From the NCBI GenBank assembly GCA_028872875.1, contig JAGWOC010000024.1, positions 1 to 41,930 on the forward strand: 41,930 nt of DNA. The letters run 5' to 3'. Shown piece after piece: positions 11,702 to 19,942 of this stretch; position 1 is the stretch's first letter; each line of letters begins with the position of its first letter. The notes under the pieces were generated by a model. It was given only the letters and a program-made list of their open reading frames with translations. It was not told the origin of the DNA and did no database searches. Both the position numbers and the translations under genes were made by a program. This DNA is from Chloroflexota bacterium (GTDB lineage: Bacteria; Chloroflexota; Dehalococcoidia; DSTF01; JACRBR01).

Positions 11702-11780
11702 CCGGCCGAGCGTGATCCGTGAGGGCTGAAGCTCCGCGGCTCGGTCGGCATCGGCAGGCGCCAGCGCGGATCCGGCAACT

Positions 11781-12335
11781 GGCGCGCCTGCGGGGGACGG
11801 AGCCGGACTCCTTCGCTACGGCTAAGTAGCCCGTGGCCGGGCGGACAGGTCTGAAGACCTGTCCTTACGGCGTGGTGCGCGTGCGGGTGTCCGGCGGCTG
11901 GTGCGCTTGCGGGGGACGGAGCTGAAGCTCCTTCGCTACGGCTGGGTAGGCCGTGGCCGGGCGGACAGGTCTGAAGACCTGTCCTTACGGCGCGGCGCTG
12001 CGCGTGCGGGTGTCGGGCGGCTGGTGCGCCTGCGGGGGACGGAGCCGGACTCCTTCGCTACGGCTGGGTACGGCGTGGCCGGGCGGACAGGTCTGAAGAC
12101 CTGTCCTTACGGCGCGGCGCTGCGCGCGCGGGTGTCCGGCGGCTGGTGCGCTTGCGGGGGACGGAGCTGAAGCTCCTTCGCTACGGCTGGGTAGGCCGTG
12201 GCCGGGCGGACAGGTCTGAAGACCTGTCCTTACGGCGTGGTGTTGCGCGTGCGGGTGTCCGGCGGCTGGTGCGCCTGCGGGGGACGGAGCTGAAGCTCCT
12301 TCGCTACGGCTGGGTAGCCCGAGGCCGGGCCTTCA
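11781..12335. repeat. Five tandem ~120-base units with two hairpins each
   Basis: Units begin at about 11791, 11910, 12033, 12155 and 12278 (spacings 119, 123, 122, 123). Each opens with CGGGGGACGGAGC. It then has a short hairpin (GGAGC-TGAA-GCTCC; units 1 and 3 read GGAGCCGGACTCC), CTTCGCTACGGCT, and a second hairpin GGACAGGTC-TGAA-GACCTGTCC, followed by TTACGGCG and a GC-rich spacer. The fifth unit is truncated before the second hairpin. The frames across it are open only because of composition. It fills most of the 707-base gap between the flavin-reductase-like gene and the O-methyltransferase gene; a partial hairpin (GGCTGAAGCTCC) also occurs near 11726. Confidence 0.9.
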
Positions 12336-15066: not shown

Positions 15067-15675
15067 TTACGGAGCGGCGCACTGAGCCGCCAGCGCGTCG
15101 ATGAAACGTTGCGCCGCGGCGAGGGCGGAGGCTTCGGTCGTTGAAACGGGGAAGTAGAGGCGCGCATCGACGGTGACGCCGCCGCAGCGCACGGTGCCGG
15201 CGAGGGTGCGGGGCGCGACCGTGCGCGGCGCGCTCGCGGGCGGCGCGGCGGGCTGCGCCCTGGATTCGACGAGCAGGACGGTCGGGCCCGCGGCTGTCTG
15301 CGCGGGGAAGCGGATCTCGCCCTTGCGCGCGCCGGCGGCGTCGGGCTGCGTCGCATCGAAGCGCGGCGTGGCGGCGGTGCCCTGGGGGAGCGCGCGGGGG
15401 AGCACCGGGGCGAAGCCGACGAACTGCTGGAACTGGCGTGCGTCGGCGAGCGGCGTCAGCAGCTCGAGGCCGCCGGGGAGGGAGAAGCCCTGTGCTGGCG
15501 CCTGCGGCGCCACGGCGGGAGCGCGGCGCATGTCGCGGACGACGTAGAGCGCCGCATAGACCGCGCCGGCGATCAGCGCGGAGGCTGCCAGGCTGCGGGC
15601 GAACAGCCAGAGGAGGCGGAGCGGCTCGTGCGGGTCGCGGCCGGCAATGGTCATTGCACGATCAACGTCGGTCAT
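15067..15675 (-). CDS. Membrane-anchored protein of unknown function
   Basis: A 202-aa protein with a short cytoplasmic N-terminus, one membrane helix (LLWLFARSLAASALIAGAVY, about residues 21-40) and an extracytoplasmic part. The outside part starts with a Pro/Ala-rich linker. It then has FVGFAPVLPRALPQGTAATP, which resembles the start of DUF4367-like or anti-sigma-associated domains, and a beta-rich C-terminus with two cysteines (VRCGG and AAQCAAP). I recognise no exact family. The ATG at 15675 is preceded by the weak GGGCAGG. It lies upstream of amt on the same strand, but a hairpin and the amt promoter separate them. Confidence 0.6.
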   Translation of the reverse strand: MTDVDRAMTIAGRDPHEPLRLLWLFARSLAASALIAGAVYAALYVVRDMRRAPAVAPQAPAQGFSLPGGLELLTPLADARQFQQFVGFAPVLPRALPQGTAATPRFDATQPDAAGARKGEIRFPAQTAAGPTVLLVESRAQPAAPPASAPRTVAPRTLAGTVRCGGVTVDARLYFPVSTTEASALAAAQRFIDALAAQCAAP

Positions 15676-15737: not shown

Positions 15738-15835
15738 ATAGTACGCGTCACCAGCAGCCGAAGCGAGAGCAGGGACGGCCGCGTGTCAAGTTCGCCGCCG
15801 CCTACCAGGGGGACAACGAGAAGCGTGTGGTCTGA
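15738..15835 (+). pseudogene. C-terminal remnant of a phage-module gene
   Basis: Just before the module, a frame ends in VKFAAAYQGDNEKRVV and a TGA at 15833-15835. Its codons have the same C-ending bias as the module. The next gene starts inside its last codons (GTG at 15825), an overlap typical of phage gene order. No start or longer frame is visible, because the sequence upstream belongs to the promoter side of the minus-strand gene at 15675. I read it as the truncated left edge of the module. The left limit is approximate. Confidence 0.3.
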
Positions 15836-16280
15836 ACCCCTCACAGCCGCCAGCGCCGACGACGGCCGCAGCGTCGTCACCGTCACCGTGCTCGACGGCC
15901 AGGGCGCACCCGTCGCCCACGTCCGCTGCGACTACAACCGCGCAGCACACACCGGCCTCTTCGGCGAGATGGTCATCACCGCCACAGGCGGCAGCCCGCA
16001 GCAGCGCGTACGCGCGCTCGTCCTCCTCGTGCGCCAGGCGCTCGCTGCCGCCGACGCGCTCGGCCTCACCCGCGTCCGCACCGAGGCCGCGGCCCGCCTC
16101 CTGCCCTTCGCCGAGCGCATGAGCAACCTCCGCGGCCGCGAGCTCCACGCCGGCGGCCGCTTCGACCTGGCCGGCGACCTCCACAGCGTCCGCACGCACG
16201 TCCTGGACACGACCGGCGCCGACGGCAGCGACACCGCGATCTCCCCCTCTCCCAAGTTGGGAGAGGGGGCCGGGGGGTGA
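15825..16280 (+). CDS. Small phage-module protein, unknown function
   Basis: A 151-aa protein starting with GTG at 15825. It reads as two beta strands (SVVTVTVLDGQGAPVAHVRC), a GEMVITATGG turn, then helices (QQRVRALVLLVRQALAAADA) and a second half around RVRTEAAARLLPFAERM. I do not recognise a family; the alternation is faintly like an acyltransferase fold, but no acetyl-CoA motif is visible. The C-terminus (PSPKLGEGAGG) is encoded by a dispersed palindromic repeat that supplies the stop codon, so the native C-terminus was probably altered. It overlaps the truncated upstream frame and precedes the DNRLRE-like gene by six bases. Confidence 0.45.
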   Translation: MWSEPLTAASADDGRSVVTVTVLDGQGAPVAHVRCDYNRAAHTGLFGEMVITATGGSPQQRVRALVLLVRQALAAADALGLTRVRTEAAARLLPFAERMSNLRGRELHAGGRFDLAGDLHSVRTHVLDTTGADGSDTAISPSPKLGEGAGG

Positions 16281-16282
16281 GG
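16241..16282. repeat. REP-like palindrome (CCCTCTCCC...GGGAGAGGG)
   Basis: CCCCCTCTCCCAA faces TTGGGAGAGGGGG, followed by CCGGGGGGTGAGG. The same element in the opposite orientation is at 25201-25243. It forms a long GC-rich hairpin and lies in the last codons of the 15825 gene. Confidence 0.8.
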
Positions 16283-16286
16283 CCCA

Positions 16287-16988
16287 ATGCCCACCGCAAC
16301 CTGGCGCTGCGACCGCGAGAACATGGGGGACGAGTTCTTCGACAACGCCTCCGGCGAGCAGCCGCTCGTCGGCGTGATCATCAGCGGCGGCAGCAAGGTC
16401 GGCAAGCGCCGCGCCTTCATCGGCTTCGACCTCACGCGCGACCCCGACATCGGCGCCCGCCCGGAGCCCGGCGCGCAACTCGCCGCCGCCGACCTCCTCC
16501 TCGACATCACGATCCTCGACGGCGTCTCCGCATGGGCGGCCCGCATCGAGCGCATCACCCGCCTCGACTGGGCCGGCTACCCAAACGCCTCGTGGCTCGG
16601 CTACAAGCCATACACCCACTGGACGACGCCAGGCGGCGACGTAGACCCCGCCTCAGCCGTCGCCTTCACATCGCCCGCCGCCCTCGGCCCCTACCAGACC
16701 GGCGGCCTGCTGCCCCTGGTACAGGACGCCTACGCCGCACGCGGCGGCCTCTGCCTGATCCGCCTCATGTCGCCGGACGCGGAAGCCAGCAGCTTCACGG
16801 CCCACTTCGGCACCGCCTTCGGCGCCACCAACGACCTCCGGCCCCGCCTCCAACTCACCTTCGCCGCTGCCGCCGCGATCGACGACCGCGACCCACCCGG
16901 ACCACGCCTCGCCGGCGTCCGCCCCGCCTTCGCCATCCGCCCAGCAAACGCAGCCAGGCCGGCCCGGCCGGCGCCACCCCGGAGGTAG
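16287..16988 (+). CDS. DNRLRE-like phage-module protein
   Basis: A 233-aa protein with the layout of DNRLRE-type carbohydrate/structural domains. A strand-rich start (TATWRCDRENMGDEFFDNAS) is followed by KRRAFIGFDLTRDPDIGARP, where such domains have R-x-L-x-x-F-D-L-S, and by AADLLLDITILDG. The middle holds WAGYPNASWLGYKPYTHWTT and QTGGLLPLVQDAY. The C-terminal 40 residues are Pro/Ala/Arg-rich. In phages and phage-derived particles such proteins are virion surface or tail-fibre components. The ATG at 16287 lies just after the repeat with no clear ribosome site. It is followed after three bases by the adaptor-like gene. Confidence 0.5.
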   Translation: MPTATWRCDRENMGDEFFDNASGEQPLVGVIISGGSKVGKRRAFIGFDLTRDPDIGARPEPGAQLAAADLLLDITILDGVSAWAARIERITRLDWAGYPNASWLGYKPYTHWTTPGGDVDPASAVAFTSPAALGPYQTGGLLPLVQDAYAARGGLCLIRLMSPDAEASSFTAHFGTAFGATNDLRPRLQLTFAAAAAIDDRDPPGPRLAGVRPAFAIRPANAARPARPAPPRR

Positions 16989-16991
16989 CCC

Positions 16992-17633
16992 ATGGCCGCG
17001 AACATCACCGCCATCCGCTCCAACGTCCGCAAAGACCTACACGACGAGGACGCCGCCGCCTACCGCTGGACGGACGCCAGCCTCGACCGCCACATCACGC
17101 GCGCCGTCGCCGACTACTCGCTCGCCGCGCCGCTCGAGCAGCGCAGCACGCTCACCACGACGGCCGGCAGCCGCGATCTCTCGGTCGCCTCGCTCGCAGG
17201 CCTGATCGCCATCGAGGCGGTCGAATGGCCGCTCGGAGAATTCCCACCCCGCCGCGTCGCCTGGTCGCAGTGGCAGACGACGATCACCATGGACGTGGTC
17301 GGGGCTCCGTCCGGCGCCGAGAACGCATACGTGTTCTGGCTCAAGACCCACACGCTCGACGCCAGCTCGAGCACCATCCCTCCGTACCACGACGAGCTGA
17401 TCACCGAGGGCGCGGCCGGCTACGCGGCCCTGGACTGGACGAGCTTCGCCACGAACCGCCTCAACATCGGCAGCGCCGATGTCTGGGGCCGCTACAAGGC
17501 CTTCGCCGACGAGCGGCTGCGCCAGTTCCGCGCCGACCTCATGCGGCTCGGCAGGGCCAACGCCGTCCGCGTCCGCCGCCTCTACGGCACAGACGCGCCC
17601 TCGATCTTCGAGCAGCAGCGGGTCAAATATTGA
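16992..17633 (+). CDS. Phage head-tail adaptor-like protein
   Basis: A 213-aa protein whose N-terminus has the pattern of phage connector/adaptor proteins: ITAIRSNVRKDLHDEDAAAY, RWTDASLDRHITRAVADYSL, then TTTAGSRDLSVASL and a middle beta region with VAWSQWQTTITMDV. The C-terminal half is helical (ELITEGAAGYAALDW, then RYKAFADERLRQFRADL). Adaptors of this type join the portal ring to the tail in phages. GGAGGTAGCCC before the ATG at 16992 is a good ribosome site. It sits between the DNRLRE-like gene and the tail-hub-like gene, on the same strand. Confidence 0.5.
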   Translation: MAANITAIRSNVRKDLHDEDAAAYRWTDASLDRHITRAVADYSLAAPLEQRSTLTTTAGSRDLSVASLAGLIAIEAVEWPLGEFPPRRVAWSQWQTTITMDVVGAPSGAENAYVFWLKTHTLDASSSTIPPYHDELITEGAAGYAALDWTSFATNRLNIGSADVWGRYKAFADERLRQFRADLMRLGRANAVRVRRLYGTDAPSIFEQQRVKY

Positions 17634-17765
17634 ACGAGACATGCACATCTTGAGACTTTGCGCAAACCCTCAAGCCGCCCCCCACACAGACCGCCCCGCG
17701 TTTGCTGCTTGCTCCGCGGCGCCGCCGCCGCCGTTTGCTCTTTGCTGCCGTCGCGGAGCGCCGTC

Positions 17766-19727
17766 ATGAGAACCATCAGCGCGGCCCTGCTCGCCGCCCA
17801 GCAGTCGGCGTCCGCGGAACCCGCCGTGCAGGCCGTCGCCTACAACATGCAGGCCGGCGTCATCCGCCTCGACTTCACCACGGCCGACGCCACCGCCAAC
17901 CCCATCAGGCGCCACGGCGCGGCCGTCGCCGGCGACGGCTCGCTCACCCGCGTCAGCATGGACACCGGCGCGGTCCTGACCAACCGCTCACCCGCGCCCG
18001 ACACGGCCATCAGCACCGGATGGTCAATCCAGCAGTCGAACAAGGGCACCCAGATCGCGGTGTGCGCGGCAGGCGCCCGCGTCGCCGTCGCGTACACCGA
18101 CGCCGCCGGCACGGGGCTCAAAATCATCGAAAGCTCAGACTATGGCGCCACCTACGCCGCCGAGGTCGCGGTCGCTACCGCGCCCGCAGCCGTCGCCGGG
18201 CTCGCCGCCGCCTACCGCGACAGCGGCGGCGACATGGCGATCGCCTGGATCGAGGCCGCGGCCCTGCGCATCGTCAAGCGCACGGCCGGCGTCTGGGGCG
18301 CCCCGTCGGCGTCACCCGCTGTCGTATCGTCCTACAACGGCATCGGGATGACGTTCGTCTTCGACTGGAACATCGCCGTCACCGGCGTCGAGGCGACGAC
18401 GCTCAAGCCCACGCTCTGGACGACGACCTACGGCGACGGGATCGACGTGCCAGCGAACACCTGGGGCGCGGCCTACGTGCAGCAGCAGACCGAGGCCGAC
18501 GCGCAGGTCACGTACCGCGCCCCCTTCCTCGCCTATATCAGCACGTACCGGCTGACGTTCGTAGAGGCCGACGCCTTCGCCGGCGGCGCCACCCGCACGT
18601 ACCGCTCGCACCTGATCTACCCGCTCGTCTGGACCAGCGGCCCCTACACCTGGCGCACGCCCGCACCCGTCGACTACACGCAGACCGAGGGGCTGGCGCT
18701 CGCCGCCGGCACGTCCTGGGCCTTCGAGTCCGCGCCCGACCACGTACACCGCGCCTCACGCGCGCTCGTCACGGCCGACCTCTCGGCGGAGCTGATCGCG
18801 GCCGACGTGCGCGAAAGCGCCTTCGACACAACCGGCTACATCGAGATCGACAACTCGGACGGCGCATACGCAGGCCCACCGGCGCCGCTCGCGGTCGGCA
18901 ACCTCGTACGCCTCAGTTGGGGCTACAAGACCCCGGCGACCGACACCTCGACCATGGCCGACCTCTGGATCGCGGGCTTCGAGTACCGCCGCACCGGCGG
19001 CATCTCGACCCTGCGCCTGGTGCTCGCCGGCGGCTGGGCGCAGCTCCGCCGCGACCGGCAGCGGACGAGCATCTTCCACGCCGCGGGCTCTGCGAGCTAC
19101 GGCCAGATCCTCACGCGCCTCATGGCCCGCGCCGGCATCAACCTCACGACCTCGGGCGCCTCGGCGCGCCAGGGCGCCGTATTCCCGGCGTTCCAGATCG
19201 CCCCCACGACGGACGCCCACACGGCCACCCGCCAGCTCCTCGACTTCATCGCCGACCGCATCATCATGCGCACGGGCACGGCCGTGCTCACGGAACCGCT
19301 CGCCACCGCCCCGAGCGTCTACACGTTCGGCGGCGCGCACGCGGTGTACGAGGCGCGTATCGCGGTCGAGCCGCCACAGGCCTCCGAAGCCCACGCCTTC
19401 GGCGCGGCCGTCTTCGGCGAGGCCATCGACTTCGCCGCCGCCCAGGCCTACATCGGCACGCGCGTCATCCGTCGCGACCTCACCAGCACGACCCCGGCGC
19501 AGGCCGCCGCGACCGCGGCCGCGCACCTGCGGCAACGCGCCCTCGACGAGCCCGGCGGCACGCTCACCGTGCCGCCCGCCTGCGGCCTCGAGCTGCTCGA
19601 CGTGCTGGACATCACCGACCCGCTGATCGCCGCGGCCGCCGTCAAGCGCCGCGTGCAGGCCATTCTCTGGCGCTGGGACGCGCCGGCGGGCCACTACGAG
19701 CAGGTGATCAGCCTGGGGGCCGTATGA
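17766..19727 (+). CDS. Large tail-hub-like protein with N-terminal beta-propeller-like region
   Basis: A 653-aa protein. Residues about 60-330 read like a BNR/sialidase-type beta-propeller, with the Asp-box-like SSDYGATY and repeated VAVA/AIAW strands. From about residue 340 (LVTADLSAELIAADVRESAF, YIEIDNSDGAYAGPPAPL) it takes the form of phage tail hub/baseplate proteins. The signs are a strand-rich pseudo-barrel, FEYRRTGGISTLRLVLAGG, a helical insert (YGQILTRLMARAGINLTT) and a C-terminal VLDITDPLIAAAAVKRRVQ. I chose the ATG at 17766, preceded by GGAGCG; the long open stretch before it contains TTTGCT-type repeats. The next gene starts inside its stop (ATGA). Codons are strongly C-ending, unlike the host genes on either side. 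Confidence 0.55.
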   Translation: MRTISAALLAAQQSASAEPAVQAVAYNMQAGVIRLDFTTADATANPIRRHGAAVAGDGSLTRVSMDTGAVLTNRSPAPDTAISTGWSIQQSNKGTQIAVCAAGARVAVAYTDAAGTGLKIIESSDYGATYAAEVAVATAPAAVAGLAAAYRDSGGDMAIAWIEAAALRIVKRTAGVWGAPSASPAVVSSYNGIGMTFVFDWNIAVTGVEATTLKPTLWTTTYGDGIDVPANTWGAAYVQQQTEADAQVTYRAPFLAYISTYRLTFVEADAFAGGATRTYRSHLIYPLVWTSGPYTWRTPAPVDYTQTEGLALAAGTSWAFESAPDHVHRASRALVTADLSAELIAADVRESAFDTTGYIEIDNSDGAYAGPPAPLAVGNLVRLSWGYKTPATDTSTMADLWIAGFEYRRTGGISTLRLVLAGGWAQLRRDRQRTSIFHAAGSASYGQILTRLMARAGINLTTSGASARQGAVFPAFQIAPTTDAHTATRQLLDFIADRIIMRTGTAVLTEPLATAPSVYTFGGAHAVYEARIAVEPPQASEAHAFGAAVFGEAIDFAAAQAYIGTRVIRRDLTSTTPAQAAATAAAHLRQRALDEPGGTLTVPPACGLELLDVLDITDPLIAAAAVKRRVQAILWRWDAPAGHYEQVISLGAV

Positions 19728-19942
19728 CAACCGAGATTCACGGCGCCATCCTCAAGGCCTGGAACGCCGGCGCCTACCTGGCCGACGTGCAGCTCACGGG
19801 CAGCCTCACGCTCTGGCTCAAGAGCGTCCCCACGTCGCGCGGCATCCCGTCCGCCGAGATGGTTGTAGGCCGCAAGGTCGCCGTGCTACTGTTCGACCCG
19901 TCCAACCCGGCGGACGCCGTCATCACCGCCGTCTACACATGA
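19724..19942 (+). CDS. Small tail-associated beta-barrel-like protein (72 aa)
   Basis: This short gene starts in the ATGA overlap with the stop of the tail-hub-like gene. It encodes 72 residues in alternating strands: TEIHGAILKAWNAGAYLADV, QLTGSLTLWLKSVPTSRGIP, GRKVAVLLFDPSNPADAVIT. The pattern (strand, GSL-x-x-W-L, VP-x-x-RGI, VAVLLFD, NPADAVITAVY) is like the OB-fold spike/baseplate proteins that cap tail hubs, although no named family is certain. It is the last gene of the phage-like module; the host MBL gene promoter begins 24 bases later. Confidence 0.55.
   Translation: MTTEIHGAILKAWNAGAYLADVQLTGSLTLWLKSVPTSRGIPSAEMVVGRKVAVLLFDPSNPADAVITAVYT

Follow-up and report, generated by a model that had tools for sequence, protein, structure and literature searches.

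The five genes at positions 15825-19942 of the window were found to form part of a particle gene set that is spread over several loci. With a probability of roughly 0.7, we read them as the locus for the tail of a DNA-packaging particle that derives from a phage, is encoded by the host and functions in the manner of a gene transfer agent (GTA). The window, namely the whole stretch of 41,930 nucleotides that was analyzed, is the entire contig C42 of its source MAG (G000; 3.4 Mb, 234 contigs, 95.5% complete). In other genera of the class the head and tail genes are contiguous, and therefore the window holds one part of the multi-locus set.

The tail locus consists of five intact plus-strand genes – P1, P2, adaptor, hub and cap. 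It is preceded by a host gene on the minus strand (15067-15654) and followed by a folate-synthesis operon. The first-pass annotation had described a one-strand run of open frames with an ATGA overlap, and this was borne out: the five genes are co-directional and open, and the hub and cap genes overlap as ATGA at 19724. The downstream host gene was found to start at GTG 19978, which is 35 bases past the module and not 24 bases as given before. The same chromosomal site, with the folate genes and the c9 gene, is occupied by the tail locus in genera of the host's family, so the comparison of the site among relatives that had been proposed as a check showed conservation within the family. The module had also been said to carry C-ending codons distinct from those of the host. 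This holds against the downstream host genes (C3 of 0.61-0.72 in the module vs 0.41-0.48), but C3 also reaches 0.58-0.61 in the host genes upstream on the minus strand, and the partner particle genes elsewhere in the genome lack the C-ending style (Mann-Whitney p = 0.22). Codon style was thus rejected as a sign of foreign origin, since it is local only and the upstream host genes are similar. Elsewhere in the window, a tandem array with a 123-base unit (4.6 copies, 91% matches) was observed between host genes at 11771-12330, and spurious reading frames cross it.

P1 (151 aa from GTG; 15825..16280, plus strand) is the first gene of the tail locus in this family of genomes, and family profile searches gave no match above chance for it. 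It had been taken for a truncated frame; read from GTG 15825, however, the product matches an intact ortholog of 137 aa at the same site in G003 (L050:7514-7927), and the earlier view was abandoned. A perfect palindrome, CTCTCCCAAGTTGGGAGAG, was observed at 16247-16265 within the 3' end of P1, where it supplies the last residues of the protein; it is missing from the protein of the ortholog and looks like an inserted short palindromic element. P2 (233 aa; 16287..16988, plus strand) is matched by orthologs at the corresponding place in families f1 and f4 (L050 and L047). Its earlier description as DNRLRE-like is retained as a weak likeness, seen in the ortholog only and below the cut-off (NF033679, E = 6e-5), and P2 is possibly a fibre or spike-associated protein. 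The third product (213 aa; 16992..17633, plus strand), which had been called adaptor-like, does resemble the head-to-tail adaptor of phage SU10: it matched Pfam PF24175 over most of its length slightly under the cut-off (E = 2.5e-5), as well as phrog_399 (3.2e-5), and a member of its family matched PF24175 above the cut-off (E = 3.6e-8).

Structure prediction, which had been suggested for the last two products, was performed with AlphaFold2. The hub (653 aa; 17766..19727, plus strand) had no family match in family profile searches, and its model (34-sequence alignment) reached a pLDDT of 93.3 and a pTM of 0.90. The model matched 9gtr_q, a baseplate protein of a contractile injection system, with Z = 25.2 (an alignment of 321 residues within model residues 11-653), and among the viral models in BFVD it matched tail proteins (E = 1e-15). 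Residues 43-335 (17892..18770), the range aligned with lectins and sialidases, matched fucose lectins with Z of about 25, and sialidases also matched. According to the model, the 653-aa product is a gp27/VgrG-type baseplate hub with an inserted six-bladed, lectin-like propeller, in agreement with the earlier propeller/tail-hub description, and the propeller is proposed to be the putative receptor-binding part. The propeller was not seen to evolve faster than the remainder of the hub (dN/dS 0.28 vs 0.29). The cap (72 aa; 19724..19942, plus strand) was modelled as an OB fold with a pLDDT of 93.0, as had been supposed, and it matched the Mu baseplate protein 9ki1_V (Z = 9.3), a T6SS VgrG (Z = 8.8) and, in BFVD, Gp5/VgrG OB-fold phage proteins. 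OB folds are common, and many others also matched the model.

No terminase, portal, capsid, sheath or integrase gene was seen beside the module, as had been stated before. The interpretation as a minimal tail module without a head holds only for the neighbourhood of the module, because the head genes are absent from the window for the reason that they are located elsewhere in the same genome. Profile searches of the contigs of the window's own genome found one copy each of capsid, portal and TerL, and the head and packaging genes, all open and intact, lie at two other loci. On contig C23, a holin-like small membrane protein, a TerS-like protein, an XhlA-like protein, TerL, an HTH protein with a cysteine cluster (a candidate regulator) and the portal are encoded on one strand, flanked by transporter-like and Tad pilus genes. 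Contig C144 carries a scaffold gene and an epsilon15-type capsid gene, flanked by luciferase-like, MarR and phosphofructokinase genes. The host genes flanking the three own loci thus comprise MBL, DHPS, HPPK, Tad, MarR, PFK and luciferase-like genes, and no integrase or replication genes were seen at these loci, nor an integrase in their flanks. The capsid is a member of the epsilon15 gp7 family (NF045672, E = 8e-60, above the cut-off; phrog_212, E = 1e-73), the portal is SPP1-like and matches PF05133, and the match of TerL to phrog_5909 is weak; the homolog of the TerS-like gene at L055 matches phage TerS families. The names XhlA-like and holin-like, which stand for two lysis-like small membrane proteins, were given on the look of the sequences and their position only, and in the own genome these genes had no useful Pfam or PHROG match. 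Among the genes found with the particle set, no tail tube or tape measure was recognised, and in most genomes no endolysin, which counts against the GTA-like reading; no sheath or tube genes were recognised in the loci that were read. Gene calls on L148 and L149 were made with the codon model of the window. Two more capsid genes, of HK97 type, were observed in G000 at C50:6858-7706 (L382) and C17:19198-20043 (L383), one of them with protease-like and connector-like neighbours; both are ordinary prophage-type elements unrelated to the capsid of the particle.

The distribution of the set was analyzed in 99 relatives within the class, with TerL, portal, capsid, adaptor and hub as the core parts. 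Adaptor homologs were found in 58 and hub homologs in 54 of the 99 relatives. All five core parts were present in 39 genomes and four in 16 (at least four in 55/99), while 31 genomes had none; under independence, 6.3 genomes with five parts and 1.3 with none would be expected. The particle set, which is nearly always single copy, is thus present or absent largely as a unit. With kinship ignored, the bearer genomes are larger (median 2.7 vs 1.6 Mb), and ComEC was found in 50 of 55 bearers vs 22 of 35 non-bearers (p = 0.002, likewise with kinship ignored). In many relatives that bear the hub and adaptor, the capsid, scaffold, portal, terminase and HTH genes lie on the same strand. In genomes of few contigs the particle genes are spread over about 200 kb (G075) or about 160 kb (G091), and in the Dehalogenimonas-like G271 (L369) the set is found within about 12 kb. 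Family f17 of the class includes genomes made up of one contig, each of which carries 20-37 reductive dehalogenase genes; we infer that these are Dehalococcoides (g26) and Dehalogenimonas (g72) and that the class is Dehalococcoidia.

In a sample of 400 genomes from across the phylum, 47 had capsid homologs, and 22 of these 47 belong to other classes. Hub homologs were found in 100 of the 400, and many of them are full-length, occur once per genome and come from large genomes outside the class. Some of the weaker hub matches cover the propeller only. At four loci from other Chloroflexota classes (L356, L358, L359 and L363), the hub and adaptor were observed together with TerL or portal-like genes and with a different protein of roughly 700 aa in the position of the capsid, possibly a case of capsid exchange.

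The descent of the particle genes was analyzed by comparing their trees with that of rpoB, and it was found to be largely vertical. Each of nine families tested formed one group in the rpoB tree, and likewise in every one of the five gene trees where it had at least two members, and 13-16 splits per gene were common to the gene tree and rpoB vs 0.2-0.3 with shuffled labels. Two of the points weighed against the GTA-like reading concern descent. Between 2 and 6 strong splits per gene conflict with rpoB, and the f3 capsids group with those of f7, and therefore some exchange occurred; the gene trees do not unite the order (f1-f4), which may reflect exchange or limited resolution at depth. In addition, between G000 and G001, of the same genus, dS is 0.49 for the hub and 0.67 for the adaptor, compared with 0.11-0.17 for capsid, portal, TerL and rpoB, which suggests local exchange or a faster-changing locus at 16992-19942.

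Selection on the particle genes, as judged from these sequence comparisons, is purifying. Between G000 and G001, the dN/dS check that had been proposed gave values of 0.07-0.28 (portal 0.07, capsid 0.10, adaptor 0.10, TerL 0.24, cap 0.26 and hub 0.28), with 0.07 for rpoB. In TerL, the lysine of Walker A, the two acidic residues of Walker B and the aspartates of the nuclease are invariant in 41 of 41 sequences. These results bear on the prophage scar that had been offered as one interpretation, in which the genes would be decaying leftovers of an ordinary prophage, kept by chance. Decay does occur within the class: broken frames were found in G060, G030, G142 and G321, Dehalococcoides keeps pieces only of the set, and the decay or loss of the set in G030, G142, G060 and G065 was also weighed against the GTA-like reading. 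At L055 (9022-11127) and L370 (Dehalococcoides-like), a large deletion that joins portal and hub was observed in G030; the capsid is gone, and TerS, TerL, HTH and cap are still open. Nevertheless, intact orthologs exist in dozens of families, the site is conserved within the family, and a scar is already contradicted by the low dN/dS, the invariant catalytic residues of TerL and the class-wide retention, so that we regard it as highly improbable. The other interpretation made at first, a domesticated and retained particle component, is supported by the class-wide orthologs, the low dN/dS and the conserved site.

When phages were searched, the best capsid matches were about 42% identical at most, the closest being Pseudomonas phages of the Ab18 group within the same epsilon15/phrog_212 family, and the portal and TerL matches were 22-30% identical. 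Hub and adaptor had no sequence match in the phage collection (tblastn for the adaptor), although the adaptor has PF24175 in common with phage SU10, and a hub search with P0004 alone found no sequence relatives in phages or viral contigs. Profiles of the capsid, TerL and hub gave no significant PDB sequence match, and that of the portal matched a gp45 portal entry only. In a capsid tree with ten phages, the class capsids and seven IMG/VR sequences formed one group of their own (support 89) with short branches, and the capsids of other-class Chloroflexota were adjacent to it.

The IMG/VR search gave 363 hits, and hubs adjoin the capsid on IMG/VR contigs. Most of the best 80 of the 363 (L168-L247) measure 4-13 kb, and the longest reaches 27 kb. 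They have the same gene order, and several of them end in other-strand genes, one of which is a response regulator. Contigs with the cluster are probably fragments of host chromosomes filed as viruses. Hundreds of viral records with these genes, together with the signs of exchange at the hub and adaptor loci, could also point to a still-living Chloroflexota virus or satellite group that integrates frequently, the single copies being recent integrations. We think this unlikely: the gene trees track the host families, the genes lie apart at unlinked loci that adjoin host genes and at which neither integrase nor replication genes were seen, and the best 80 contigs are short, with ends of the kind described above.

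According to a published definition, GTAs have six features, which include caudoviricete-derived proteins, mostly vertical inheritance with co-diversification with hosts, own genes that cannot be fully packaged given heads that are too small, packaging of mostly random host DNA, and delivery of what was packaged to other cells; few functional GTAs are known, from alphaproteobacteria, a deltaproteobacterium, a spirochete and a methanogen (PMC9662315). From genes alone, three of the six were found here. Caudoviricete-derived proteins are present (capsid, portal, adaptor, TerL with its weak match, and the hub and cap folds), the layout is multi-locus, with C23, C144 and C42 each beside host genes, and inheritance is vertical with few strong conflicts, the order not being one group. 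As for the packaging limit, the unlinked loci make joint packaging unlikely here, yet the L369 set spans only about 12 kb. We therefore call the set GTA-like and claim no proof of a GTA; packaging and delivery are what we infer from its genes. A prophage would have its integration and replication genes next to the structural ones in one contiguous genome, and no such arrangement was found at the three own loci. The hub occurs together with capsid, portal and terminase, which sets the particle apart from contractile injection systems and tailocins.

The set resembles RcGTA (alphaproteobacteria, Rhodogtaviriformidae), BaGTA (Bartonella) and BhGTA (Brachyspira) in being caudoviricete-derived, distributed over several host loci and mostly vertical, with no replication genes seen. 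Unlike them, it belongs to another phylum and is known from genes alone, and it has an epsilon15-type capsid with a separate scaffold, an SPP1-like portal, an SU10-like adaptor and a hub with a lectin propeller, with no tube or tape measure recognised; in the PDB sequence search, no significant match to the described GTAs came up. A search of papers available without subscription found no GTA reports for Dehalococcoidia, SAR202, Dehalogenimonas or Chloroflexota. The hub and cap folds are like those of contractile injection systems, phage gp27/gp5 and VgrG, but the hub contains a propeller, and head and packaging genes are found in place of sheath and tube.

A domesticated particle that serves some purpose apart from DNA transfer, for instance to kill relatives or to deliver protein, would fit the hub's best structural matches, among which are baseplate hubs from contractile injection systems, and the wider occurrence of the hub than of the capsid in the phylum sample. 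Part of this excess, however, consists of weak matches to the propeller alone, and in other classes some hubs are found next to TerL and portal-like genes. Moreover, a terminase with intact ATPase and nuclease residues, a portal and a scaffold, which serve DNA packaging, are kept together with the tail parts, and such a use is in our judgment unlikely.

Under the GTA-like reading, the cell would build small capsids in response to some host signal, and the terminase would fill them with host DNA. The adaptor, hub and OB cap would form a very short tail, whose lectin-like propeller would bind sugars on related cells. The producers would lyse via the small membrane proteins, and the recipients would take up the DNA, perhaps via ComEC. 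At about even odds, the set may represent an ancient, phylum-wide GTA lineage of Chloroflexota, independent of the described GTAs, with a minimal short-tailed particle and a lectin-propeller hub, inherited since before Dehalococcoidia diverged, with capsids swapped in other classes and with its genes widely misfiled as viruses.

The tail genes of the window therefore belong to a phage-derived DNA-packaging particle set that Dehalococcoidia have kept intact and passed largely from parent to daughter. This suggests that Dehalococcoidia may make their own virus-like particles that pass DNA among themselves, and the GTA reading can be tested in culture via Dehalogenimonas. If it is true, many records in virus collections would be host genes, and a further, apparently independent origin of GTAs would have been retained through the class, including the cultured Dehalogenimonas, which would be relevant to the question of why such particles are kept by bacteria. 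The GTA reading would also suggest a route by which genes move within a phylum that has few cultured members and that includes the organohalide respirers.
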